The position numbers and the translations under genes are program-made. The notes beneath the pieces were generated by a model. That model saw nothing but the letters and a program-made list of their open reading frames with translations. It was not told where the DNA came from and made no database searches. 64,000 nucleotides of DNA. Source: Bacteroidaceae bacterium. GTDB taxonomy: Bacteria; Bacteroidota; Bacteroidia; Bacteroidales; Bacteroidaceae. The DNA lies in the NCBI GenBank assembly GCA_017458585.1, contig JAFTAJ010000045.1:62001-126000 (forward strand). The letters are read 5' to 3'. Of the stretch, positions 12,596 through 63,270 are shown piece after piece (position 1 is the stretch's first letter; every line of letters starts with the position of its first letter).

Positions 12596-13619
12596 CGACT
12601 ACACCAGCACCTGCCACCCCCTCATACTGGAGCGCCTCGCCCAGACGCAAGGGCAACACTTCGACGGCTACGGCACCGACGCCATCACCCTCTCTGCCCG
12701 AGAGAAGATACGAGCTCTGTGCCAGCGCCCCGATGCTGCCGTCTATTTTCTCTGCGGTGGCACACAGACCAATATGGTTGTCATCAACTACCTGCTACGC
12801 AGTTTCGAGGGAGTCCTCGCTGCCGACAGCGCCCACATAGCCATCCACGAATCGGGAGCCGTAGAGTTCACCGGCCATAAGGTGCTCAATCTCCCGTCCC
12901 GCGACGGCAAGATAACCGCTGCGCAGGTCGATGACTATGTCAACAACTACTATGCCGACCCCAACTGGGAGCACATCGTACCACCGGGCATGGTCTATAT
13001 CACCTACCCCACCGAGTACGGCACCCTCTACTCACTCAGCGAGCTGGAGCAGCTCAGCGCAGTATGCCGTAAGCACAACATCCCCCTCTACCTTGACGGC
13101 GCACGCCTCGGCTACGCCCTCGCAGCAGAAGACACAGACGTCACCCTCCGCGACATCGCCCGCCTGTGCGACGCCTTCTACATCGGCGGCACCAAGTGCG
13201 GAGCCATGTTCGGCGAAGCAGTGGTCATACCCGACGGCAGGCGTGCCGACCGCTTCTTCTCCCACATCAAGCGTCACGGCGCCCTCATCGCCAAGGGTTG
13301 GGTGACCGCCCTGCAGTTTGACACACTACTTGACGGGGACAGCCTCACCGACACACCTTATTATAATATATGTAGTCATGCGGTGAAGGAAGCCATGCGT
13401 CTGAAGAACTCCCTCATTGGCAAGGGCTACACGCAGCCCGTGGACTCCCCCACCAACCAGCAGTTTATCGAAATCTCTCTTCAGCAAGCCGAAGAGCTCA
13501 AGCAGCACATCACTTACGGCGAGTGGGAGCCGCCCCGCGGCAACAAGGTGACCATACGCCTCGCCACCTCGTGGGCCACTGACCCCAAGGACATCGACAA
13601 GCTTATCGAGCTGCTGTAG
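12582..13619 (+). CDS. Threonine aldolase-like PLP enzyme
   Basis: 345-residue fold-type I enzyme of the low-specificity L-threonine aldolase family, which splits beta-hydroxy amino acids to glycine and an aldehyde. The PLP lysine is in YIGGTKCGAMFG; LYLDGARLGYAL holds the cofactor Asp; FDSDYTSTCHP is the family start. It overlaps tyrA by 14 nt and ends the operon before a strong terminator. Why it sits in an aromatic operon is unclear; it may act on beta-hydroxy aromatic amino acids or only share control (inference). Confidence 0.88.
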   Translation: MHFDSDYTSTCHPLILERLAQTQGQHFDGYGTDAITLSAREKIRALCQRPDAAVYFLCGGTQTNMVVINYLLRSFEGVLAADSAHIAIHESGAVEFTGHKVLNLPSRDGKITAAQVDDYVNNYYADPNWEHIVPPGMVYITYPTEYGTLYSLSELEQLSAVCRKHNIPLYLDGARLGYALAAEDTDVTLRDIARLCDAFYIGGTKCGAMFGEAVVIPDGRRADRFFSHIKRHGALIAKGWVTALQFDTLLDGDSLTDTPYYNICSHAVKEAMRLKNSLIGKGYTQPVDSPTNQQFIEISLQQAEELKQHITYGEWEPPRGNKVTIRLATSWATDPKDIDKLIELL

Positions 13620-33994: not shown

Positions 33995-34270
33995 TTACTT
34001 TTCAATTACTGCCACTACGTCAGATTGGCGCATGATGAGGTACTTCTCGCCCTCAAACTCAATCTCGGTGCCGGCGTACTTGCCGTAGAGCACCTGGTCG
34101 CCAGCCTTGAGAATCATTTTCTCGTCTTCCTTGCCTTCACCGGCGGCAACTACCGTGCCCTGAAGGGGCTTCTCCTTTGCGGTGTCAGGAATAATGATAC
34201 CGCCAACTGTCTGGGTCTCTGCGGGAGCCGGACTGATCAGAACTCTGTCTGCTAATGGTTTTAGTTTCAT
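33995..34270 (-). CDS. groS: Co-chaperonin GroES
   Basis: 91-residue lid of the GroEL chamber. Recognised by [20 protein letters not shown], the mobile-loop region [16 protein letters not shown] and the closing DVVAVIEK. First gene of the groES-groEL operon. Upstream there is no good -7 box. Instead a sequence with the spacing of a sigma-54 promoter lies 50-64 nt before the ATG. No CIRCE inverted repeat was seen. Confidence 0.97.
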
Positions 34271-34334: not shown

Positions 34335-34423
34335 AAGTCGCAGACTTCGCGAAAAACTTTCGTTGGCCGTCGGCCTTGCCGGTGCCAACCTCGCAGAAAT
34401 TTTGAGAGCAAAGCGGTCAAAGC

Positions 34424-35575
34424 CTATTTCGCGGGCATGAAAATTTGCTGCGAGCCAAACTGGCAATATGGGAAAAGCACGTTTCGCAACTTACCGTACT
34501 TATTCTCATTAACAGTTTGAAGAGCGATGGCCCGTACGTTCTTGTCAAAGTAGTGACTTATCGGCTCCTTCAGGTTGAGATGGGAGTCAGTTCTCTCATA
34601 GTCAAACGTGCTGCTATACACAATCGGCCCGCGCTGCAGCGCCACCATGCCAGGCTGCTGCTTGTCGCTCACGCGCAGAATCGGCGTGGGCATCTTTACA
34701 TTTATGATGTCGCCCACCGCCCAGCGGCCCTTCACCACGGCATAGCCGTCGAGCATCTCGGGAGTATATAGGCTGCCATTGACCATGATAATCACCGGCT
34801 GCTTCTTGGACTGTGCCGTATAGCGCGGCAGCATGTCCTGCCCGTTGGTCCACGACGGGATGCGGATATGGAACGTCAGCTCCACGCTGTCCGTCACCTC
34901 CTCGTGAACAATCAGTCGGAGGTATGGCGACAGCACCGTGTCGGCCACCTCTTCGATGGGGCTCATATCCTTGACTATGCGGATGCTGGTGTCGTTATAC
35001 CACGGGCTGCCGTTGAACACCTGCATGCAGAAATCCACTTCTTCGTTCTTGACATGCACATTGCTGCGCATAAGCATATTTATAAATATGTCCCGCCCGC
35101 GCGTAGCGTAAGCCACGCTGCCCACCGAGCGCATCACCTGCGCCAGAAGCTCGTGCCTCCACTTCCACGCCATATGGAACTTCCACATCCTCATCACCGA
35201 GTTGGCCAGCACCCTCTCCGCCACATCGAAGTAGCGCGCCTTGCCAGTCTGCAAGCCCAGCTCCACGCTCTCCATCAGCAGCGGCAGCAGTTCGTCGGCA
35301 CTACGCACCGAGTCGCTCAGGGCGCCCTCCAAGCGCATACCCTCGATATAACGCTCCATGCTGGCACAGCGACTGGCTAGGGCGTCAGCATCCATCGGGG
35401 TGCTCGCCCATGGCCAAGCGCGTGGCGTACTGCCCATGATAGAGTCCGCGCTGCGCTGCGCATCGCACCAGAAGAAGTCATACAGCACCACGCTGTCGGC
35501 CTCCACCATGCGCAGGGGCTGCGCACTCGCTCCCACTGCGAGCATCGTCAATAGCCACAGACACAAACTTCTCAT
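34424..35575 (-). CDS. Secreted GH127/DUF1680-like protein, short form
   Basis: 383 residues with a signal peptide (MRSLCLWLLTMLAVGASA). The C-terminal half resembles the beta-sandwich end of GH127-type (DUF1680) beta-L-arabinofuranosidases: LTFHIRIPSWTNG, VNGSLYTPEMLDGYAVVKGRWAVGD and MVALQRGPIVYSS. The N-terminal half is helical but lacks the recognisable catalytic Cys/Glu segments, and full GH127 enzymes are about 600 residues or more. It may be a reduced binding protein or a divergent enzyme. It lies downstream of the sialic acid operon, separated by a repeat array. Confidence 0.55.
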   Translation of the reverse strand: MRSLCLWLLTMLAVGASAQPLRMVEADSVVLYDFFWCDAQRSADSIMGSTPRAWPWASTPMDADALASRCASMERYIEGMRLEGALSDSVRSADELLPLLMESVELGLQTGKARYFDVAERVLANSVMRMWKFHMAWKWRHELLAQVMRSVGSVAYATRGRDIFINMLMRSNVHVKNEEVDFCMQVFNGSPWYNDTSIRIVKDMSPIEEVADTVLSPYLRLIVHEEVTDSVELTFHIRIPSWTNGQDMLPRYTAQSKKQPVIIMVNGSLYTPEMLDGYAVVKGRWAVGDIINVKMPTPILRVSDKQQPGMVALQRGPIVYSSTFDYERTDSHLNLKEPISHYFDKNVRAIALQTVNENKYGKLRNVLFPYCQFGSQQIFMPAK

Positions 35576-54300: not shown

Positions 54301-54400
54301 CGCCCGCAAGCGGGCTAGAATGCCAAAGGCATCGCGAGAGCTTCATCGGTGGTCGCACAAAGTGCGGGCCGATATTAAGAAGCTCGAGAGTGAAACGGCA
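54301..54400 (+). repeat. TGGTC structured repeat, copy A, with two leading mini-hairpins
   Basis: Mini-hairpins GCCCGC-AA-GCGGGC (54302) and ATGCC-AAA-GGCAT (54320) precede the element at 54332-54400. The element runs: TCGCGA box, stem 1 GAGCTTC/GAAGCTC, stem 2 ATCGG/CCGAT, internal loop TGGTC against GGG, stem 3 GCAC/GTGC, 3' bulge ATTAA, tail GAGAGTGAAACGGCA. The 350-bp gap 54277-54626 holds this element and the repeat at 54434-54592. Confidence 0.85.
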
Positions 54401-54433
54401 AGTTAAAGACAATACTCCAGCCTCAATCAAAAC

Positions 54434-54592
54434 ATTCGACTATCGTCTAGCGAATATAATGCATTTACCTTGTAACTCGCCCTATAGGGAGAGTTGAGAG
54501 GGTCTTGCGCGATAACTTCGAGGAGCCACAGGCTCCGATAACTTCGAGCAGCGAAGCTGCGATAACTTCCGAGCGAAGCGATAACTTCTAAA
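54434..54592 (-). repeat. GAAGTTATCG linker/hairpin repeat, locus 1
   Basis: Read on the minus strand, the linker GAAGTTATCG occurs four times (54588, 54569, 54545 and 54519 downwards). Between copies are small hairpins: CTTCGCTCG type, CAGCTTCGCTGCTC, then GGAGCCTGTGGCTCC. A GACCCTCTCAACTCTCCC module and a conserved GACTATCGTC-type end follow. Related loci lie at 62339-62430 and 63166-63270 in the opposite orientation. Confidence 0.8.
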
Positions 54593-54626
54593 AATTGAAA
54601 ATAACTTTTTTAATTTTAAATCTAAT

Positions 54627-55964
54627 ATGGTAACACAAAAAATCATGGCCGACCTTGAGGCCAAGCATCCTGGTGAATCAGAGTTTCTCCAGGCAGTAAG
54701 AGAGGTGCTGCTCTCCGTAGAAGATGTTTACAACCAGCACCCCGAGTTTGAGAAAAACAAAATCGTTGAGCGTCTTGTGGAGCCCGACCGCATCCTCACC
54801 TTCCGCGTGGTGTGGGAGGACGACAAGGGCGAGCTGCAAGTCAACCGCGGCTACCGCGTGCAGTTCAACAACGCCATCGGCCCCTACAAGGGCGGCATCC
54901 GTTTCCACGCCTCCGTCAACCTCAGCATCCTGAAGTTCCTCGGCTTCGAGCAGACCTTCAAGAATGCCCTCACCACCCTGCCCATGGGCGGTGCCAAGGG
55001 CGGTAGCGACTTCTCGCCGCGCGGCAAGAGCAACGCCGAGATACGCCGCTTCTGCCAGGCCTTCATGCTCGAGCTGTGGCGCAACATCGGTCCCGACCAG
55101 GACGTGCCCGCCGGCGACATCGGCGTAGGCGGTCGCGAGGTAGGCTACCTCTATGGTATGTATAAGAAGCTGCAGCGCGAGCACACCGGCACCATCACCG
55201 GCAAGGGCCTCGAGTTTGGCGGCTCCATCCTGCGTCCCGAGGCCACCGGCTTCGGCGCCCTCTACTTCGTCAACCAGATGCTGGAGGAGAAAGGCATCGA
55301 CATCAAGGGCAAGACAGTGGCCATCTCCGGCTTCGGCAATGTAGCATGGGGTGCAGCCACCAAGGCTGTGCAGCTCGGTGCCAAGGTAGTGACCATCTCC
55401 GGTCCCGACGGCTATGTATATGACCCCGATGGCATCAGCGGCGACAAGATTGACTACATGCTCGAGCTGCGCGAGAGCGGCAACGACATCGTAGCCCCCT
55501 ACGCCGACAAGTATCCCTCCGCCACCTTCTATCCCGGCCGCAAGCCGTGGGAGCGCAAGGTGGACATCGCGCTGCCCTGCGCCACGCAGAACGAGGTGAG
55601 CGCCACTGACGCCCAGCAGCTCATCGACAACAAGACCCTCTGCATCGCCGAGGTCAGCAACATGGGATGCACCGAGGAGGCAGCCACCCTGTTCCTGCAG
55701 AACAAGATGCTCTTCGCCCCCGGCAAGGCCGTCAACGCAGGCGGCGTGGCCACCAGCGGCCTCGAGATGAGCCAGAACGCCATGCACCTCTCCTGGACCG
55801 CCGCCGAGGTGGACCAGCGTCTGCACCACATCATGAGCTCCATCCACGGCCAGTGCCTCAAGTACGGCAAGGAGCCGACGGGCTACATCAACTATGTGAA
55901 GGGCGCCAACATCGCCGGCTTCATGAAAGTAGCTAAGGCGATGATTGACCAAGGACCAATTTAA
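54627..55964 (+). CDS. gdhA: NADP-specific glutamate dehydrogenase
   Basis: 445-residue hexameric GDH. It assimilates ammonium by reductive amination of 2-oxoglutarate. Signatures: NRGYRVQFNNAIGPYKGG, the catalytic-type Lys in LPMGGAKGGSDF, PAGDIGVGGREVGYLYGMYKK and the nucleotide fold ISGFGNVAWGAATK. The length matches the bacterial NADP type. The last 34 bp, including the stop, are copied twice further on (56180-56213 and 58191-58224). A terminator lies 325 nt downstream beyond two structured repeats. Confidence 0.97.
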   Translation: MVTQKIMADLEAKHPGESEFLQAVREVLLSVEDVYNQHPEFEKNKIVERLVEPDRILTFRVVWEDDKGELQVNRGYRVQFNNAIGPYKGGIRFHASVNLSILKFLGFEQTFKNALTTLPMGGAKGGSDFSPRGKSNAEIRRFCQAFMLELWRNIGPDQDVPAGDIGVGGREVGYLYGMYKKLQREHTGTITGKGLEFGGSILRPEATGFGALYFVNQMLEEKGIDIKGKTVAISGFGNVAWGAATKAVQLGAKVVTISGPDGYVYDPDGISGDKIDYMLELRESGNDIVAPYADKYPSATFYPGRKPWERKVDIALPCATQNEVSATDAQQLIDNKTLCIAEVSNMGCTEEAATLFLQNKMLFAPGKAVNAGGVATSGLEMSQNAMHLSWTAAEVDQRLHHIMSSIHGQCLKYGKEPTGYINYVKGANIAGFMKVAKAMIDQGPI

Positions 55965-55996
55965 TGGGGACTTGGGCAAGCTGAGCCTTAGCTACT

Positions 55997-56090
55997 TCGC
56001 GAGCCGTAGCCGCATGGTCGCGCCGTCTCGAAAAAGTCAGGAGACTTTTTAGGCGCGGGTGCGGTAAGCGAAGGCGAGAGCGAAGCGGCA
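55997..56090 (+). repeat. TGGTC structured repeat, copy B
   Basis: TCGCGA at 55997-56002, stem 1 imperfect (GCC/GGC core), stem 2 CCGCA/TGCGG, TGGTC against GGG, stem 3 GCGCC/GGCGC. An extra inner hairpin AAAAAGTC/GACTTTTT lies at 56031-56050. The tail GAGAGCGAAGCGGCA is at 56076-56090. It lies 32 nt after the gdhA stop, on the same strand. Confidence 0.85.
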
Positions 56091-56106
56091 AGGTTGCGTT
56101 GCAAGC

Positions 56107-56174
56107 TCGCGAGCGTTTTGTCAGTGGTCGCCGAAGGCGGGCTGACATTAGAAAAACGCGAGAGCGAAGCGGCA
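56107..56174 (+). repeat. TGGTC structured repeat, copy C
   Basis: TCGCGA at 56107-56112, stem 1 GCGTTTT/AAAACGC, stem 2 GTCAG/CTGAC, TGGTC against GGG, stem 3 GCC-GAA-GGC, bulge ATTAGA, tail GAGAGCGAAGCGGCA at 56160-56174. It stands 16 bp after copy B. Confidence 0.88.
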
Positions 56175-56179
56175 CAGTT

Positions 56180-56251
56180 GCTAAGGCGATGATTGACCAA
56201 GGACCAATTTAATCGGAAGACCCCCTCCCCGCTCCCCCATGAAGGGGGAGT
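56180..56251 (+). repeat. Copy of the gdhA 3' end plus CTCCCCC hairpin repeat
   Basis: 56180-56213 is identical over 34 bp to the end of gdhA (55932-55965, including the stop codon). It is followed by GAAGACCCCCTCCCC and the hairpin CTCCCCC/GGGGGAG, the same unit that occurs inverted at 6721-6755. A second, slightly diverged copy of gdhA end plus flank is at 58191-58240. Confidence 0.9.
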
Positions 56252-56289
56252 GCACGGAATGTGGTACTTTTATCCCTTATAAATTAAGA

Positions 56290-56319
56290 AGGAGAGAGGC
56301 TGTCCTCTCTCCTATTTTT
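56290..56319 (+). terminator. Rho-independent terminator, probably of gdhA
   Basis: AGGAGAGAGG pairs with CCTCTCTCCT (10 bp) around CTGT, followed by ATTTTT. It is the first strong terminator after gdhA. Confidence 0.8.
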
Positions 56320-56797
56320 GTTTGTTTGAGGCTGAGCGCCGTCCTCTGCCGTTCTAAAAAATCACGTGATTTCGTGATTTCGTGATTTTTTCTGAGGAAC
56401 GTTACCTCTGTTTGCTGCGATTCCTATCCCCCATTTCTTTATCCCCATCTCCTAACTGCAAAATCCCAACTCCTTATATTTAAGTCAGTTCTCGCGCCAA
56501 ATAAGCCCGAACTGCTACGCCGCACCTCTGACTTTTTTGAAATCATTTCAGGGCAAAATCGGAGGGGAACTTGACTATTTGACGTCAAAACGCGTCAAAT
56601 ATTTTTTATATCTGTTTTTTTTTGCATAAGAATTGCATAAGTTGCTGATTATTAGCGTTTATTTTTTGAACAAAATTATTTATATATATATATGATATAT
56701 ATATAAATAATTCATATAAGAAAGCTATCGCGAGGGGGATACCCCTTTCCTATAATTTTGACGTCAAATCGTTGAATCGTCAAATTCTTTTGACGGA
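56320..56797. other. Gene-free stretch with a large A/T palindrome and TTTGACG boxes
   Basis: No plausible gene. It holds a TCACGTGATTTCGTGATTTCG repeat near 56365-56390. An 18-bp perfect palindrome with a 3-nt centre (56674-56712, alternating AT ending in AATT) follows. Several TTTGACG or CGTCAAA boxes lie near 56574-56596 and 56757-56795, including the palindrome TTTGACGTCAAA. The boxes lie at the 3' end of the UmuD-like gene. Confidence 0.6.
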
Positions 56798-57652
56798 TTA
56801 GTTCTTCTGGGAGAGGAAGGACTTGGTGGACTCTATCTCCAGTTCGGTGAAGAGGTTGGGATTGGCGAGATACCTGTTGTAGTTTTGGCGGGTGCCGATG
56901 TCGCCGAACTCGTCACTGATGGTGTTGTAGTCGGTCTGGGTGATGAGTCCGAGCTGTGCGGCGCAGTAGATGGCGAGGGCTACGGCTTTGCCTTTCTTGC
57001 CGGAGATGAGCTGATGCAATAAGATTGAGGATTGAGAAAATGGTGCTGCGGGTGCGTTTGTTTTCGTCAAGTTTGGGGTGACGGCGTTTGCCACGAGTTC
57101 GGGCGAGCCTTTCTTCGTGTACTTATAATCAGAGCCACGCGCTGCCATCAGCTGTTTGAATGTCATCGGCAAGAGGTGTTTCCTCTTTTGGTCGCGTGTG
57201 GTGAATTTCACTACGCCCTGTATTTTGAGTCTCTGTGAGCGCAGTGGCAGTTCTATGGTTGGATAGTTTTTGTTGGATGGCACGAGTCGCACCTTTCCCT
57301 TTTCGCGGTCGATGTAGAGTACTTTTATCAGGGCTTCCCCATCTACCCAGGCGAGGACGGTGTCACCCTGCTGTGGTGTCTGTTCGGGGTCGATATACAC
57401 GAGGTCTCCGGCTCTGAAGTCAGGCTCCATGCTATCGCCATGTGCCTCCACGATGATAACCGAGTCTCTCTTCACTCCGTAGAAGTCGAGCACATCGGCC
57501 TCTTCTCCGAGGACGTCTCCCACATCAGTAGGAGATCCGCACGACACCTTGTTGACGAACTTCTTGAATACCGTTGCTCCGTCGGGAGAGAAGCGATAAA
57601 TCTTCAAGTCCTCTGCTAGGACTCCACCGTATTTAGTTTGTTTCTTTGCCAT
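56798..57652 (-). CDS. UmuD/LexA-like S24 peptidase with extra C-terminal domain
   Basis: 284 residues. Residues 30-150 are an S24 self-cleaving protease: candidate cleavage site Cys-Gly in KVSCGSPTDVGD (as in UmuD; LexA uses Ala-Gly), nucleophile Ser in AHGDSMEPDFRAGDLVYID and Lys in GEALIKVLYID. There is no N-terminal HTH, which also favours a UmuD-like protein over a repressor. The C-terminal 110 residues (QSSILLHQLISGKKGKAVAL through TRQNYNRYLANPN) form a further helical domain I do not recognise. A truncated frame lies directly upstream. Confidence 0.7.
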   Translation of the reverse strand: MAKKQTKYGGVLAEDLKIYRFSPDGATVFKKFVNKVSCGSPTDVGDVLGEEADVLDFYGVKRDSVIIVEAHGDSMEPDFRAGDLVYIDPEQTPQQGDTVLAWVDGEALIKVLYIDREKGKVRLVPSNKNYPTIELPLRSQRLKIQGVVKFTTRDQKRKHLLPMTFKQLMAARGSDYKYTKKGSPELVANAVTPNLTKTNAPAAPFSQSSILLHQLISGKKGKAVALAIYCAAQLGLITQTDYNTISDEFGDIGTRQNYNRYLANPNLFTELEIESTKSFLSQKN

Positions 57653-57655
57653 TGT

Positions 57656-57830
57656 TTAATCCGCTATATCGCTATGAGATATTGTTACGGGTTCTAAATT
57701 TATTATTTCGTCTTGTGACTTCTCTGTTTTCTCCGGAATGGGCTCTGCGACTTCCTCGGAATTTATCTCAGTTGCGACCTCATATACTTCTTCTTTTGCT
57801 TGCTGGATATCTGCATCGGAAGGAACTTGA
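57656..57830 (-). pseudogene. Truncated C-terminal gene fragment
   Basis: In the frame ending at 57656, the last 55 or so residues look like a genuine acidic protein end (QVPSDADIQQAKEEVYEVAT, then ITSEEV-type acidic text ending VTISHSDIAD). It stops 3 nt before the UmuD-like gene, so it was probably its operon partner. Upstream of 57830 the sequence switches abruptly to the duplicated DUF3267 segment in another frame, so the 5' part of this gene has been lost. I cannot name the family. Confidence 0.5.
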
Positions 57831-58113
57831 TATAGAATCCGGCTTCGGAGGGATGGTCGAGCACGAGGCTGTGGCGGTCTTCCTTGGTCAGGAGCCATGT
57901 CATCCAGATGTCGCCGGCTGCGGCGGCGATGAAGAAGATGCCCCAATGCCAGGTGCCTCCCAGCAGGTCTCCTATAGGCTTGCGGCCACTCCAAATCATG
58001 AAGAACGGCACCAGAAACACGATGGCCGATACCAACATGATAGCCAGGGCAAAGAGATTGGCCTTTCCGATGTTGATGGACACCTTGCGCCCTATTTCGT
58101 GGTCTTTTTCCAT
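57763..58113 (-). pseudogene. Deleted duplicate of the DUF3267 protein
   Basis: 116-codon frame. From its start it is nearly identical to residues 1-59 of the protein encoded at 59224-59790, then jumps in frame to the FFIAAAAGDIWMTWLL part. Eighty-seven codons are missing, including the HELIH motif. The intact copy has the direct repeat GATGCCCCA at both ends of the missing 261 bp, and the short copy keeps just one. The last 20 residues (KFLPMQISSKQKKKYMR) come from out-of-frame reading of the adjacent gene fragment. It is probably non-functional. Confidence 0.85.
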
Positions 58114-58126
58114 TGAGGGTACGGGG

Positions 58127-58240
58127 TTAGTCCGCCCAGTCGTCGGTGCGGGCTGGCATTAAAGAGCCGCGAGAGCGCAGCGGCACAGTAGCTAAAGCGA
58201 TGATTGACCAAGGACCGATTTAATCGGAAGACCCCCTCCC
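58127..58240 (+). repeat. TGGTC structured repeat, decayed copy E, with gdhA-end copy
   Basis: The right half is kept: GGG, stem 2' CTGGC, bulge ATTAA, and tail GAGAGCGCAGCGGCA (58171-58185). The left half is reduced (CCCAG then TCGTC) and the TCGCGA box is missing. The gdhA end follows at 58191-58224 with two mismatches, then GAAGACCCCCTCCCC. Together with 56160-56230 this is a 75-bp paralogous segment. Confidence 0.75.
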
Positions 58241-58425
58241 CTCAAACGGGACTCCCCCTATCTTAGAGGCAGAAATGAGAGAATAGAGAATAGAGAAAAG
58301 AGAAGAGAGAACAGAGAGACATACCCCCTCCCGGCGCTCCCACCCCTCAGTCGCAAGCGACAGCCCCCTTACGGGGACTTCCCCTAACTTAGGGGCAGAA
58401 ATGAGAGAATAGAGAAAAGAGAGAC
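58228..58425. repeat. CT-rich hairpin modules in tandem with GAGAATAGAGAA microrepeats
   Basis: Two related units (58228-58320 and 58321-58425) each run from CCCCCTCCC through a small hairpin (CAGTCGCAAGCGACAG in the second) to TTAGGGGCAGAAATGAGAG and end in GAGAATAGAGAA runs. They fill the 378-bp gap 58114-58491 together with copy E and a palindrome. Confidence 0.7.
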
Positions 58426-58429
58426 AAAT

Positions 58430-58463
58430 ACGCGCGTACATTATAGAAATAGTGTACGCGCGT
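58430..58463 (-). terminator. Palindrome downstream of the TA operon
   Basis: ACGCGCGTACA (58430-58440) pairs perfectly with 58453-58463 around a 12-nt loop. It lies 28 nt after the toxin stop. A weak ATTTGT follows on the minus strand, so it may terminate or protect the transcript end. Confidence 0.5.
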
Positions 58464-58491
58464 AGAGATTTAGCTTCGGAAATAGGGGAAG

Positions 58492-58812
58492 TTATTCCAT
58501 TCGCTTCATGACGTCTCGTAAATAGGCATCATTGATATTCTCAAAGTCAGACTTATCGTAGATATATAGAAGTTGCAACTCATCGGCGATAACGCGGACA
58601 CGAATTATTACTCGTGCTCCACCACTCTTACCACGACCTTTCGAGCTGATGGCTAATCGAACCTTACGAGCACCGCCCTCTAATTCTACACCCTGCATCG
58701 GGTCCAGAAGCAACGATGCAAGCAGTCGCTCAAAGTCTGCCTCTAGCGATTTGTGTCTTTTCTTCAACCTTTTATAGGCTGTGCGAAAGTCCTCTGACAT
58801 TCTTACTTTCAT
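58492..58812 (-). CDS. RelE-superfamily toxin
   Basis: 106-residue small basic protein of the RelE/ParE superfamily. Typical order: KVRMSEDFRTAYKRLKKRHKSLEADFERLLASL (two helices), then strands GARKVRLAISSKGRGKSGGARVIIRV and ELQLLYIYDKSDFENI. The Lys/Arg-rich strand region would cut mRNA at the ribosome in RelE-type members. Its start overlaps the antitoxin stop by 4 nt (ATGA), the normal coupling for a TA pair. This module is intact, unlike the YafQ remnant at 2732-2881. Confidence 0.78.
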   Translation of the reverse strand: MKVRMSEDFRTAYKRLKKRHKSLEADFERLLASLLLDPMQGVELEGGARKVRLAISSKGRGKSGGARVIIRVRVIADELQLLYIYDKSDFENINDAYLRDVMKRME

Positions 58813-58997
58813 AATGCCCTGAGTGCTGCAATAGTTTCTTCGGGGGTCATGGCTGGCTCTGATTCTACTTGCCTCATGCTGCGCTTAATAATGCGAGCCA
58901 GTTTGTAAGTCTCTTCCAATTGCAACATTCTATTCCACCTTCGCGTACTCATGCTGACGGTGACTCTGCTTGGTGTCCTTTCTATAATTGTTGTCAT
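58809..58997 (-). CDS. Antitoxin of the RelE-type module
   Basis: 62 residues. An N-terminal strand (RVTVSMSTRRWNRML) and two following helices (LEETYKLARIIKRSMRQVE) are followed by MTPEETIAALRAL. Small size, first position and ATGA overlap with the RelE-like gene identify it as the antitoxin. A perfect promoter lies 27 nt upstream. I do not recognise the antitoxin subfamily from sequence alone. Confidence 0.7.
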   Translation of the reverse strand: MTTIIERTPSRVTVSMSTRRWNRMLQLEETYKLARIIKRSMRQVESEPAMTPEETIAALRAL

Positions 58998-59023
58998 AGC
59001 GTTTTTTCCTTTTTTACACGGTG

Positions 59024-59056
59024 CAAAGATAGTGATTATTTTTTATTATCGCCAAA
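59024..59056 (-). promoter_or_regulatory. Promoter of the TA module (TTTG-N21-TATCTTTG)
   Basis: On the minus strand TTTG (59053-59056) and TATCTTTG (59024-59031) are 21 bp apart, 27 nt before the antitoxin ATG. Confidence 0.75.
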
Positions 59057-59079
59057 TTTTGAGGGGAGAAAAGAGAGGA

Positions 59080-59222
59080 GAGAACAGAGAACACACCCCA
59101 TCCCGGCTTTGCCACCCCTCAGTCGCACATCCCATTCCCGGCTCCCACCCCTCAGTCGCAAGCGACAGCTCCCCTCTGGCAGGGGGGCAAACCACTCTCC
59201 CTAGCTTTGGGGGAGAATCCTT
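59080..59222. repeat. CT-rich hairpin modules (CACCCCTCAGTCGCAAGCGACAG type)
   Basis: Two tandem CCCGGC/CACCCCTCAGTCGC units, the second with hairpin GTCGC-AA-GCGAC, then CTCCCCTCTGGCAGGGGGGC and a closing TAGCTTTGGGGGAGAATCC. Microrepeat GAGAAAAGAGAGGAGAG precedes. The unit abuts the end of the DUF3267 gene. Its CAGTCGC/GCGACAG style resembles dispersed repeats of gut Clostridia. Confidence 0.7.
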
Positions 59223-59223
59223 T

Positions 59224-59790
59224 TTACTCCCCGGGCTCTTCGATGATATAGAATCCGGCTTCGGAGGGATGGTCAAGCACGAGGCTGTGGCGGTCTTCCT
59301 TGGTCAGGAGCCATGTCATCCAGATGTCGCCGGCTGCGGCGGCGATGAAGAAGATGCCCCACGCCAGCAGAGGAAGGCTCCCGATGAAGAGGGCCACGAT
59401 GGCAGGGAGGACTCCCAAGACGATGCAGGGCATGATGGCTCCCATCATGTAGCCGGGGATGCGCATCGGTTCATCGCAATGGCAGTAGGGCGTCAGCATC
59501 TTCCACATCACGCCGAAGCTGATGCTCTTCCAGCCGCTCTTGGCGTAGCAGGCCCAGGTGATGCCGTGTATCAGCTCGTGCACTACGATGCCGACTATCA
59601 TCAGAGCAAACACGATGCCCCAATGCCAGGCGCCTCCCAGCAGGTCTCCTATAGGCTTGCGGCCACTCCAAATCATGAAGAACGGCACCAGAAACACTAT
59701 GGCCGATACCAACATGATAGCCAGGGCAAAGAGATTGGCCTTTCCGATGTTGATGGACACCTTGCGCCCTATTTCGTGGTCTTTTTCCAT
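59224..59790 (-). CDS. DUF3267 membrane protein (putative zinc metalloprotease fold)
   Basis: 188 residues with about four to five transmembrane segments. The second carries the gluzincin-like HELIH (residues 71-75, IVVHELIHGITWACYA), as in DUF3267 proteins, which are thought to be membrane metalloproteases; a third ligand is not obvious. Starts MEKDHEIGRKVSINIGKANL. It lies 7 nt after the flavoprotein gene on the same strand, so the two are co-transcribed. A duplicate with an internal deletion lies at 57763-58113. Confidence 0.75.
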   Translation of the reverse strand: MEKDHEIGRKVSINIGKANLFALAIMLVSAIVFLVPFFMIWSGRKPIGDLLGGAWHWGIVFALMIVGIVVHELIHGITWACYAKSGWKSISFGVMWKMLTPYCHCDEPMRIPGYMMGAIMPCIVLGVLPAIVALFIGSLPLLAWGIFFIAAAAGDIWMTWLLTKEDRHSLVLDHPSEAGFYIIEEPGE

Positions 59791-59797
59791 AATGTGT

Positions 59798-60421
59798 TTA
59801 GAGTCCGTCCGCGAAGCTGGTGAATGTGCCTATCTCCTTCTCGGGGAGGCCCATCTGCTGCTTGCCGAGGGCTATACTCTTGATGAGGAATGCCATATTG
59901 CGACCCAGGTTGCGCATGGTCTGGAGGCCTTCGAGGTCTTTCTCCACATCTTCCTGCGTGTGGCCATGCACTTCGTTCCAATAGGTGCTCGAGACAACGG
60001 GCATGCCGGATATGGTAAAGTATTTGTTTATCTCGTCAAATGCTGAGGTGCTACCGGCACGACGCGATGACACCACCGCTGCGCCTACCTTCATCAGCTT
60101 GTCACACTGGCAGCTGAAGAACAGACGGTCGAGGAATGCTATCAGGCCTCCGTTGGCATGGGCATAATATACGGGGGTACCTACGACGATGCCGTCGGCT
60201 TCGGCAAAGAGCGGGGCTGTCTCGTTGACCAGGTCGTTGAACACGCACTTGCCCTGCTGCCGACAATTGAAGCATGATATGCAGCCACGCACGTCCTTGT
60301 TGCCTACGCTGACCCAGCTGGTCTCTATGCCTTGCTCGTGCAGGGTTGTCTCTACCTCTTTCAAGGCTCGTGCCGTGCATCCTTTCGGATGGGGGCTGCC
60401 GTTAATCAATAATACTTTCAT
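59798..60421 (-). CDS. Iron-sulfur flavoprotein (NADPH-dependent FMN reductase family)
   Basis: 207 residues with a flavodoxin-like fold. The N-terminal LLINGSPHPKGCTARAL binds FMN phosphate. A compact cysteine cluster C47-x2-C50-x2-C53-x5-C59 (GCISCFNCRQQGKC) marks the iron-sulfur flavoprotein type. VVGTPVYYAHANGGLIAFLDR is the second flavin segment. It probably takes part in redox housekeeping or stress defence; the partner is unknown. Copy D of the TGGTC element ends 25 nt before its ATG on the same strand. Confidence 0.85.
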   Translation of the reverse strand: MKVLLINGSPHPKGCTARALKEVETTLHEQGIETSWVSVGNKDVRGCISCFNCRQQGKCVFNDLVNETAPLFAEADGIVVGTPVYYAHANGGLIAFLDRLFFSCQCDKLMKVGAAVVSSRRAGSTSAFDEINKYFTISGMPVVSSTYWNEVHGHTQEDVEKDLEGLQTMRNLGRNMAFLIKSIALGKQQMGLPEKEIGTFTSFADGL

Positions 60422-60445
60422 GGGGTTTTAAATAAGTTACAAAGT

Positions 60446-60540
60446 TGCCGCTTCGCTCTCGAACTTCTTTATATCGACCCGCGCCTAAAAAGTCTCCTGA
60501 CTTTTTCTAGACGGCGCGACCACCGATGAAGTTCTCGCGA
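60446..60540 (-). repeat. TGGTC structured repeat, copy D (5' of the flavoprotein gene)
   Basis: On the minus strand: TCGCGA (60540-60535), stem 1 GAACTTC/GAAGTTC, stem 2 ATCGG/TCGAT (one G-U), TGGTC against GGG, stem 3 GCGCC/GGCGC with inner hairpin AAAAAGTC/GACTTTTT, bulge ATAAA, tail GAGAGCGAAGCGGCA (60460-60446). It would lie in the 5' leader of the downstream gene. Confidence 0.88.
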
Positions 60541-60585
60541 CCCCTGCGGGGTTCAAGAGTTTAAGGGGTTTAAGGTGTTCAAGGG

Positions 60586-60787: not shown

Positions 60788-60979
60788 GCACCACCTGCCT
60801 GTTATCTGTCGTGCCTACGGCACTTAAGTCTTAAATGTTTTTCAGGTTTTTGCACCACCTGCCTGTTATCTGTCGTGCCTACGGCACTTAAGTCTTAAAT
60901 GTTTTTCAGGTTTTTGCACCACCTGCCTGTTATCTGTCGTGCCTACGGCACTTGAGTCTTAAATGTTTTTCAGGTTTTC
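60788..60979. repeat. Three tandem copies of a 64-bp repeat
   Basis: Copies start at 60788, 60852 and 60916 and are almost identical (TTAAG becomes TTGAG in the third). Each contains the hairpin GTGCC-TAC-GGCAC after the linker CTGTTATCTGTC and ends in T-rich sequence. The related linker CTATTATCTGTC at 63450 is joined to a different hairpin. Confidence 0.92.
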
Positions 60980-61002
60980 GTTATCGTTTTCGTTTTGGCA
61001 AC

Positions 61003-62286
61003 CTAAGCTTGGTTTCGGACTATCGTTTGGTTGCGGTCGGGACCTACGCTGACGATGGTGACGGGGATGCCGACGTACTCTTCGATGAAGGCGATGTAGT
61101 CACGGAGCGTCTGGGGAAGCTGCTCGTAGGTGGTCATCTTAGTGAGGTCGGTCTGCCAGCCGGGGAGCTCCTCATAGACTGCCTCGCATTCGCTGAGGTC
61201 GTAGGGAACCTCGGTTAGCGTTGAGGGGTTAGCGGTTAGCGAACGATAGGCGGTGCAGACCTTGACGGTGGGGAACTGGCTGAGGACGTCGCTCTTCATC
61301 ATGATGAGCTGGGTGACTCCGTTGATTTGGACGGCGTACTTGAGGGCGACGAGGTCGAGCCATCCGCAGCGACGGTTGCGGCCTGTGACGGCTCCATACT
61401 CGTGGCCGAGCTCACGGATGCGGTCGCCGGTAGCGTCGAAGAGCTCTACGGGGAAGGGGCCTGAGCCAACGCGGGTGCTGTAGGCCTTGAAGATGCCAAA
61501 GACATCGGCTATCTTGGAGGGCGGCACACCGAGGCCGGTACATACGCCACCTGTGGTGGTGGAAGAAGAGGACACCATGGGATAGGTGCCGTGGTCGAGG
61601 TCGAGCATGGCGCCCTGGGCTCCCTCGGCGAGCACGCTCTTGCCCTCAGCAAGGAGCTGGTTGATCTCGTTCTCGCTGTCGGTGAGGGCAAAGCCCTTCA
61701 TATACTCCACTCCCTCGAGCCAGAGGCGCTCCTCGGCGGTGATATCGTACTCGTAGCCGAGGCGGCGCAGTATCTGCTCGTGGCGCTCCTTGGCGGCGGC
61801 GTATTTCTCTGCGAAGTTGCTGAGGATATCGCCCACGCGGAGTCCGGTGCGGGCCGCCTTGTCGCTATAGGTGGGGCCGATGCCCTTGCCGGTGGTGCCT
61901 ATCTTGTTCTTACCCTTGGCAGCCTCGTAGGCACGGTCGAGAGCACGGTGCGTAGGCAGGATGAGGTGGGCACGCTTAGAGATATGGAGCTTGCCCTTGA
62001 CATCATAGCCCGCAGCCTCCAGCTCGCGTGCCTCGGCCATGAAGAGGTCGGGGGCGATGACGCAGCCGTTGCCGATGATATTGAGGGTGTGCTCTCCGAA
62101 GATGCCGGAGGGGATGGAGCGCAGCACGAACTTCTTGCCATCGAAGATGATGGTGTGGCCGGCGTTGGGGCCACCGGCGAAGCGTGCCACCACGTCGTAT
62201 TGGGGTGTGAAATAATCTACTACTTTTCCTTTGCCTTCGTCGCCGAAGACTATGCCCAGGAGGGCATCTACTTTTCCTTTGGTCAT
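61003..62286 (-). CDS. purA: Adenylosuccinate synthetase
   Basis: 427 residues. Joins IMP and aspartate with GTP hydrolysis, the first committed step to AMP. Motifs: the GTP loop IVFGDEGKGKVVDYF, FAGGPNAGHTI with the catalytic His, IGTTGKGIGPTYSDKAAR, LAEGAQGAMLDLDHGTYPMVSSSSTTTGG and VTGRNRRCGWLDLV. Full length. The 64-bp tandem repeats end 23 bp beyond its stop. No promoter was identified in the repeat-rich upstream gap (62287-62337). Confidence 0.97.
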   Translation of the reverse strand: MTKGKVDALLGIVFGDEGKGKVVDYFTPQYDVVARFAGGPNAGHTIIFDGKKFVLRSIPSGIFGEHTLNIIGNGCVIAPDLFMAEARELEAAGYDVKGKLHISKRAHLILPTHRALDRAYEAAKGKNKIGTTGKGIGPTYSDKAARTGLRVGDILSNFAEKYAAAKERHEQILRRLGYEYDITAEERLWLEGVEYMKGFALTDSENEINQLLAEGKSVLAEGAQGAMLDLDHGTYPMVSSSSTTTGGVCTGLGVPPSKIADVFGIFKAYSTRVGSGPFPVELFDATGDRIRELGHEYGAVTGRNRRCGWLDLVALKYAVQINGVTQLIMMKSDVLSQFPTVKVCTAYRSLTANPSTLTEVPYDLSECEAVYEELPGWQTDLTKMTTYEQLPQTLRDYIAFIEEYVGIPVTIVSVGPDRNQTIVRNQA

Positions 62287-62338
62287 GTTTTGAAGATTGA
62301 AAATTGAAGATTGAAGAGTGAGAATTAAATTTTTAGAA

Positions 62339-62430
62339 TTTATCGCTTCGCTCAGAAGTTATCGCGCTTCGCGCTCAGAAGTTATCGGAGCCTGTGGCTC
62401 CTCGAAGTTACCGCTTCGCTCGACGATAGC
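62339..62430 (+). repeat. GAAGTTATCG linker/hairpin repeat, locus 2
   Basis: Order: CGCTTCGCTC, linker AGAAGTTATCG, CGCTTCGCGCTC, linker, GGAGCCTGTGGCTCC, linker variant CGAAGTTACCG, CTTCGCTCG, then GACGATAGCC. It is followed by ATTTACTATTTATGTAC text shared with locus 3. Module order matches locus 3 and, inverted, locus 1. Confidence 0.85.
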
Positions 62431-63150: not shown

Positions 63151-63165
63151 TGAATTTTTTTAAGG

Positions 63166-63270
63166 AGTTATCGCTTCGCTCAGAAGTTATCGCGGCTTCG
63201 CCGCTCAGAAGTTATCGGAGCCTGCGGCTCCTGAGGAAGTTATCGCGCTGACGCGCTCGACGATAGTCAA
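63166..63270 (+). repeat. GAAGTTATCG linker/hairpin repeat, locus 3
   Basis: Order: linker GAGTTATCG, CTTCGCTC, AGAAGTTATCG, CGGCTTCGCCGCTC, AGAAGTTATCG, GAGCCTGCGGCTCC, GGAAGTTATCG, CGCTGACGCGCTCG, GACGATAGTC. Compared with locus 2 the linkers are almost constant while hairpin arms differ with pairing kept. Confidence 0.87.

Follow-up and report, generated by a model that had tools for sequence, protein, structure and literature searches.

The stretch of DNA analyzed here (the window) comprises 64,000 nucleotides of a Bacteroidaceae genome (assembly GCA_017458585.1, contig JAFTAJ010000045.1, positions 62,001 to 126,000), and it contains several copies of a small palindromic repeat. A preliminary description, made from the letters of the window alone, had listed four well-formed copies and a decayed one, and had taken their maintained pairing as a sign of selection for an RNA or single-stranded DNA (ssDNA) fold. 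We describe herein the dispersal, anatomy and covariation of this element, its insertion target, two empty sites, and its in-frame insertion into protein genes. The element is probably a non-autonomous mobile palindromic DNA repeat, which would move via a folded strand and is joined between two A residues (A^A). Its copies in the window, and the gdhA sequences that accompany some of them, are located as follows.

34335..34418, plus strand: copy F, with mini-hairpin AAGTC-GCA-GACTT and core (core 34347-34418, 42 bits)
54320..54400, plus strand: copy A, with mini-hairpin ATGCC-AAA-GGCAT at 54320-54332, then core and tail
55927..55997, plus strand: long, imperfect inverted repeat that takes the place of the mini-hairpin in copy B
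55997..56090, plus strand: core of copy B, long form, stem 3 with nested hairpin
56091..56174, plus strand: copy C, with mini-hairpin AGGTTGC-GTT-GCAAGCT at 56091-56107 (one mismatch), then core
56178..56213, plus strand: gdhA 3' end for the second time, following copy C
58121..58185, plus strand: copy E, a decayed remnant, after which the gdhA 3' end appears for the third time
60446..60552, minus strand: copy D, long form, with mini-hairpin ACCCC-GCA-GGGGT at 60552-60540

The positions and architecture first given for copies A (54332-54400, plus strand), B (55997-56090, plus strand), C (56107-56174, plus strand) and D (60540-60446, minus strand) were confirmed by the sequence and by a covariance search, and the fifth copy, E, is indeed decayed. 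That list of five was incomplete, since it missed copy F, which lies between two minus-strand open reading frames (ORFs) at 33995-34270, which we take to be groES-like, and at 34424-35575. The covariance model (R1) was built from eight short-form copies of the window's genome (G000, 2.4 Mb; genomes and loci carry G and L numbers below), A and C among them. In the genome-wide search, these two members reached E = 1.5e-16 (A) and 8.6e-21 (C), and the copies outside the model reached 5.8e-14 (D), 3.3e-7 (F), 5.3e-6 (B) and, weakly, 0.006 (E; 25.8 bits). With these included, the search gave 29 matches in the genome up to E = 1, of which 27 lie below 1e-5, so that there are many copies beyond those of the window. 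Copy A is an 81-nt unit, and an identical unit occurs elsewhere, in G009. Copies B and C are arranged head-to-tail.

Anatomy of the unit

The anatomy was derived from 166 vetted copies. An initial 351 pattern matches were reduced to 204 by dropping duplicates and those without the loop motif, then to 197 with flanks of at least 40 nt, and finally to 166 by leaving out eight loci outside the carrier genomes and copies with more than two stem-1 mismatches; the mismatch limit also removed a related type that shares the ends (L193, L170, L211 and L230). Part of the set came from loci L210-L237, beyond the named stretches of the species scan described below. Because the pattern requires a tail with at most four changes, worn copies are missing from the set.

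A unit consists, in order, of a mini-hairpin of the form A-NNNN-GNA-NNNN-T, the sequence CGCGA, a three-stem core, and the tail GAGAGCGAAGCGGCA. The core runs through stem 1 (7 bp), stem 2 (5-6 bp), a GTC/GG internal loop, stem 3 (with or without a nested hairpin), stem 2', an A/T-rich bulge, and stem 1'. The tail can be divided into GAGA-GCGA-AGCGGCA, of which the GCGA pairs with TCGC (helix 1, 85.8% of cells paired). The unit had originally been drawn from TCGCGA to the tail; this holds for the core, and the 5' limit has to be moved outward to include the mini-hairpin, which ends in the T of TCGCGA. The internal loop, at first thought to be an invariant TGGTC/GGG, is not invariant in the wider family, where GTC...GG is mostly kept, with variants such as YTGTC...GGTK and, in a few copies, GTA or ATC.

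Except for one of 126 nt, all vetted units (165/166) are 78-107 nt long. A mini-hairpin is present in 140 of the 166 copies, while three control offsets gave 8, 16 and 8. The arm measures 5 bp in 118 of these 140 copies, with 28 different left arms, and the loop is GAA, GTA, GCA, AAA or ACA in 114. Ends of the form TGCC...GGCA are confined to the ATGCC type; other types begin with ACCCC or ACTGC. GTAG and CGTC strings, sought by eye, occur in some copies (in the mini-hairpin with loop GTA and in stem 3), not as a constant end tag. Among the 36 copies with another TCGCGA within the next 60 nt, the distance from the tail to that TCGCGA is exactly 12 nt in 22, which defines the unit borders in arrays. 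The idea that the long mini-hairpin arm copies the 3' flank, as is the case at gdhA and in a few other copies, was rejected as a general rule: 3 of 18 long mini-hairpins match (0.57 in shuffles, maximum 3 in 300), as do 16 of 122 short ones (8.5 in shuffles, maximum 19).

Distribution among genomes

The first model, applied to 101 genomes (the window's own and 100 relatives), matched in six, all of the same genus. A second model, built from 138 matches, found the element in seven of 19 congeners, with counts of 28 (G000), 32 (G013), 23 (G009), 25 (G012), 2 (G001), 102 (G007) and 132 (G016), all of which are lower bounds because 150 candidates per genome were scored. In a family-wide sample, six of 251 genomes had matches, again all of the same genus; G001, with its two weak matches, was missed there because the filters were stricter.

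An exact pattern (TCGCGA, 38-68 bases, GAGAGCGAAGCGGCA) was also run over 84,980 species genomes and retrieved 108 stretches. Among the 80 stretches listed, 74 fall in five Bacteroidales metagenome-assembled genomes (RUG13781, RUG13363, RGIG10237, RGIG10102 and HAN087), and the remaining six are single matches in other organisms, near the chance estimate of about four. The titles of two of the five name the yak rumen; the RUG prefix presumably denotes rumen genomes. Plasmid and phage records gave no match to the stretch containing copies B and C, and viral contigs gave two single pattern matches. No earlier description of the element was recognized by keyword and sequence searches of the open-licence literature.

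Insertion site and recent movement

An exact empty counterpart of copy A was found downstream of gdhA in G009 (L111), where the sequence reads ...GCTAGA|AGTTAAAG... and the insert of the filled form extends from ATGCC to CGGCA. The pair is not a strict orthologous position, because the G000 stretch lies upstream of gdhA. A second exact empty site is provided by a filled locus (L193) and an unfilled one (L114), the latter reading ...GGCGAGA|AAAGGTGG... within another palindromic repeat; the copy in L193 is of the related type, which shares the ends and differs in the stems, and stands outside the 166 vetted copies. At both exact empty sites, the target duplication is 0-1 nt. The host repeat of this second site is itself a palindromic family, AACCTTTTCGCTAAGCC...GGCGAGAAAAGGTGGTTGCGAAGAAACCAAC, present in L114 and L193 and read in-frame within a long ORF in L193, where it hosts the related-type copy. 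A further module, AAGTCCGGAGGTGGGCACTGA|(A/C)AGAAATTACCAGAAATT, is repeated in G016 and G007 (L090, L091, L094, L096, L098, L099 and L102), both with and without an element at the bar, and a one-base difference at the junction sets the filled form apart.

The target was counted over 96 of the 140 copies with a mini-hairpin, with array members left out. An A directly precedes the unit in 88 of these and directly follows it in 86, and one position further ahead of the unit 83 have C or G. The target consensus is S-A^A, with the unit joined between two A residues.

Many copies are flanked by 7-nt tandem repeats of the ATNNTCA type. Runs of three consecutive repeats occur 292 times in G000, 296 in G001, 301 in G009, 71 in G013, 91 in G007 and 58 in G016 (overlapping matches of a pattern with two free positions), compared with 26, 0, 9, 2, 73 and 40 for the backwards pattern. 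The type therefore stands out little in G007 and G016, where the control is nearly as frequent; other 7-nt types, GGAGTTA and similar, are present in these two genomes. The carrier G012 has no triple ATNNTCA, and among non-carriers only two have any (4 and 1). Similar flanks had at first hinted at target duplications, but these proved to be 7-nt arrays round the insertion. Such arrays also occur in-frame inside protein genes, e.g. SMVNSQCSMVNGQWSMVN round the element in L207.

Identical units of 80-84 nt were found in 16 places, forming seven groups (some across genomes, others inside a single array). In addition, 135 pairs of copies have at most two core differences with unrelated flanks. These observations reflect recent spread.

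Copies inside protein genes

Seventeen of the 166 copies, read in the sense direction, are open for 100 codons or more on each side; shifting the downstream part by 1 or 2 nt left 2 and 3. In the antisense direction, a single copy qualifies (0 and 0 when shifted). With at least 60 codons, the figures are 25 for sense (8 and 8 shifted) and 3 for antisense (5 and 2 shifted), and the sense copies use all three reading frames (12, 9 and 4). This sense bias does not come from stops inside the unit, since sense has fewer open frames than antisense: zero, one, two or three frames are open in 4, 70, 66 and 26 copies in sense, and in 9, 21, 81 and 55 in antisense. It may instead come from the target (which reads TGA in antisense when it is TCA) and from the TCA-type 7-nt flanks.

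Ten host proteins, picked from the genic copies, were scanned for Pfam domains, and all contain them. In six, the domains flank the insert or extend across it (NAD-dependent DNA ligase, ATP synthase gamma, UDP-glucose dehydrogenase, a sigma-70-type factor, glycoside hydrolase 2 and an AAA helicase), and in four they lie on one side only (DnaG primase, Omp85, a sulfatase and a beta-eliminating lyase). Some ORFs in the genic listing are not genuine copies, and we rely only on proteins that were scanned for domains or queried for relatives. Among the fetched loci, an insert-free relative at more than 60% identity was found for five of 12 queried proteins, and a sixth has one at only 28%. The window itself contains one such empty site.

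12735..13616, plus strand: beta-eliminating lyase-type gene, empty site; its G007 orthologue (L202) has the element in-frame

This lyase gene provides one of the two cleanest cases, being without 46 residues (the element plus 7-nt flanks) that are present in the G007 orthologue. The other is a G000 sigma factor without the 27-residue insert of its relative. In ATP synthase gamma the insert substitutes part of a variable loop.

Maintained pairing of the stems

That the stems change while pairing persists was borne out by two-sided changes across 124 distinct rows. Paired cells amount to 95.5% (74.1% in shuffles), double-change cells number 574 (174 in shuffles), and the covariation score is 0.609 (0.207 in shuffles, and at most 0.081 when the partner was slid by 1-3 columns), figures that lean towards structure because the alignment was fitted to the model. 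A weaker measure, two-sided change in 17 of 20 pairs, compares with 14.5 in shuffles and was reached by 15 of 500.

Such covariation, together with the position of copy D, which ends 24 nt before a start codon at 60421, and of several copies in leaders or near promoter-like motifs (by eye), would suit a family of cis-regulatory or small RNAs whose fold is selected in leaders and 3' regions. An RNA fold read from the sense strand is expected to tolerate G-U pairs and to shun A-C. In stems 1-3, G-U or U-G cells number 31 and A-C or C-A cells 22 (P = 0.27; 26 and 20 distinct contexts), and over all 20 pairs the numbers are 39 and 52; by this yardstick, which is a general rule not calibrated on control RNA, there is no clear G-U excess, and so the data do not point to RNA. 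In addition, B, C and D are sense to the neighboring gene and F is antisense (a comparison made for the window copies, not counted over all copies), the element sits in-frame and in three frames within genes for DNA ligase, primase, ATP synthase gamma and others, and it is restricted to part of one genus in the genomes searched. Comparison with Rfam gave no family for the element, and the preliminary description had likewise recognized no known riboswitch, REP or attC family in it; the sole sub-threshold match lies elsewhere, at 56543-56610. Owing to the gene-internal copies, the placement in both orientations, the narrow range and the lack of a clear G-U excess, we consider a functional RNA very improbable. 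Of the two folds first proposed, ssDNA fits better: the fold appears to be important at the DNA level, unless the arms are copied from each other.

Host duplications and possible replication errors

At gdhA, the element is accompanied by duplications of host sequence. The final ~36 bp of gdhA occur three times, from 55932 and 56180 (around copies B and C) and from 58191 (after E). The inverted repeat ahead of copy B consists of the gdhA 3' end, a loop, and the reverse complement of that end, which is decayed and reaches up to CGCGA; no counterpart of it was seen by eye after gdhA in G009, G012 or G005. Similar arrangements also occur in G016 and G007. Because gdhA and, as judged by eye, a few other copies carry host duplications, insertion is not always clean. 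As a separate observation, the copies in L008, L080 and L092 directly follow a tRNA-like 3' end (...GAACCCCAAGCGGGTC; by eye), and this end sequence is repeated after the element.

Fold-back copies of host sequence, as at gdhA, are what replication errors would leave. According to this explanation, template switching, fold-back synthesis and slippage spread both the hairpins and the 7-nt repeats, and correction of quasi-palindromes keeps the arms complementary. The 7-nt arrays in six of seven carriers and their scarcity elsewhere in the genus, the mini-hairpin with its 28 different arms and mostly 3-nt loop, and A-C mispairs roughly as frequent as G-U are all in line with it. Against it, the near-constant ends (CGCGA and GAGAGCGAAGCGGCA) and GTC/GG loop, the exact array borders and the fixed A^A target argue for specific recognition; identical 80-84-nt units stand between unrelated flanks, and G012 has the element without the 7-nt arrays tested. 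On balance, replication errors as the sole source appear unlikely, although this explanation overlaps with the copying variant of the mobile-repeat reading.

Search for a mobilizing enzyme

Mobility of hairpin repeats by a Y1 transposase is known from repetitive extragenic palindromic (REP) elements and REPINs, which resemble the present element in being hairpin-based, dispersed and found in arrays. Movement of the element by such a REP-associated tyrosine transposase (RAYT) would be a special case of the mobile-repeat reading and would agree with the hairpin, the missing target duplication and the single-strand logic, and there is one Y1_Tnp gene in G000. Nevertheless, Y1_Tnp (PF01797) was matched in only one of seven carriers, the other six including both genomes with more than 100 copies, and in three of 12 non-carriers; it does not track with the element. 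The unit of ~80 nt with its asymmetric core also exceeds REPs, given as 20-40 bp and extragenic (PMC3733652). A RAYT-driven element is thus improbable. Reverse transcriptase (RVT_1, PF00078) does not track with the element either, being matched in three of seven carriers and two of 12 non-carriers; the link to a REP-type transposase or reverse transcriptase contemplated at the outset was therefore not found. As the carrier assemblies are 77-92% complete, absence of a gene is weak evidence in any single genome.

Small size, dispersal and high copy number would equally be expected of a classical miniature inverted-repeat transposable element (MITE) moved by a DDE transposase, such as Correia, ERIC and BrickBuilt, which are likewise small non-autonomous repeats, or of a retro-element. 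MITEs are characterized by terminal inverted repeats and target duplications. In the present element, terminal inverted repeats do not appear to be general, and target duplications are not general, as the two exact empty sites illustrate; an association with reverse transcriptase is lacking, and no autonomous long version was seen among 313 starts (mini-hairpin plus TCGCGA) in the fetched DNA, overlapping loci being counted, for each of which a partner end was sought within 5 kb. This origin is the least probable of those considered. One locus, L100:804, was inspected as a possible mover carrier and rejected, as it looks like an element broken by a ~0.6-kb insert with a 96-aa ORF.

Other repeats in the window

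The window contains further repeats of different kinds. At 54509-54588, 62336-62423 and 63164-63246, GATAACTTC units alternate with small hairpins of varying stem, among them GGAGCC-ACA-GGCTCC and GCAGC-GAA-GCTGC; the first block lies ahead of gdhA, and the other two are on the minus strand. The same ORF start (MEKDHEIGRKVSINIGKANLFALAIML...) occurs twice, at 57763-58113 and 59224-59790, the first being shorter and adjoining remnant E. A tandem repeat of ~60 bp with an internal GTGCCTACGGCAC hairpin occupies 60790-60985 (by eye), between copy D and a gene at 61003.

Discussion

The most satisfactory account of these findings is that of a mobile DNA repeat, in which an ssDNA intermediate and a mobilizing enzyme supplied in trans would be involved. 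The element would move as a folded single DNA strand, or be copied by fold-guided strand switching. The ends and the GTC/GG loop would be recognized, and the stems would need only to pair. A new unit would then be joined precisely between two A residues, with a duplication of at most 1 nt and often at junctions of 7-nt repeats, and re-insertion beside an existing unit would give rise to head-to-tail arrays. Among landings in genes, those that are in-frame, stop-free and in sense would survive, and the proteins would be lengthened by ~26-28 residues.

Several points weigh against this account. Only two exact empty sites were found, both in repeated or rearranged DNA rather than at strict orthologous positions; the second concerns the related type in L193, and a third, near-empty site, in another repeated module, is off by one base. 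Since the leading A of the mini-hairpin was imposed by the pairing rule used, the border of the unit is certain only to +-1 nt. The insertion at gdhA carries a long duplication of host sequence, and L015, L008:1325 and L033 look similar by eye. The covariation alignment was fitted to the model, and arm-to-arm templating without a folded intermediate could be the source of the maintained pairing. Neither of the two enzyme families tracks with the carriers, and no mover was found, tyrosine and serine recombinases and other HUH enzymes not having been searched for. Finally, copies in leaders possibly have regulatory side effects.

A bolder version of the mobile-repeat account can be offered tentatively, namely that the element represents a new class of ssDNA transposition, in which the enzyme would read the shape of the hairpin (variable stems, a near-constant GTC/GG loop and CGCGA/GCGA ends) and join it at A^A without duplication. 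The mini-hairpins and 7-nt arrays may be made by the same activity, and repeated in-frame peptide insertions in essential proteins would be part of this picture. The degrees of confidence attached to the various explanations overlap, because two of the alternatives are partly special cases of the preferred one.

The nearest known kind appears to be the Rickettsia palindromic element (RPE), along with the Wolbachia palindromic elements. We know of no mover for RPEs. Like RPEs, the present element is a small dispersed hairpin repeat found both between genes and in-frame in unrelated protein genes, whose products are lengthened. It differs from them, in a comparison made by description only, in that it occurs in Bacteroidales, another phylum; it is shorter; its stems and 5' mini-hairpin vary freely with pairing kept; and it uses three frames, an A^A target without duplication, and 7-nt arrays. 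According to a 2024 review, RPEs are ~150 bp long and form ten families, with 44 integrations in R. conorii, nearly half of which, from three families, lie in ORFs (PMC10969869).

Two other systems invite comparison. The double-hairpin elements of Allomyces mitochondria are mobile hairpins of variable stem sequence and conserved structure, and by this description are alike in their variable stems; they differ in being organellar. Integron attC sites are folded single-strand hairpins with conserved extrahelical bases and a G^TT core; the present element is joined at A^A rather than G^TT, and no cassette genes were seen with it.

To our knowledge, palindromic elements that enter genes in-frame are known mainly from obligate intracellular Rickettsiales. 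The Bacteroidales element is an independent case, with more than 100 copies in individual small genomes, clean borders, empty sites, and a contrast between carriers and non-carriers within one genus, which makes the mechanism testable by comparison of gene content and by resequencing of strains. It also shows how a selfish repeat can directly add segments of ~27 residues to household proteins, among them DNA ligase, primase and ATP synthase gamma. Inserts of this kind are therefore to be expected in the clade by annotation pipelines and by structural biologists alike.

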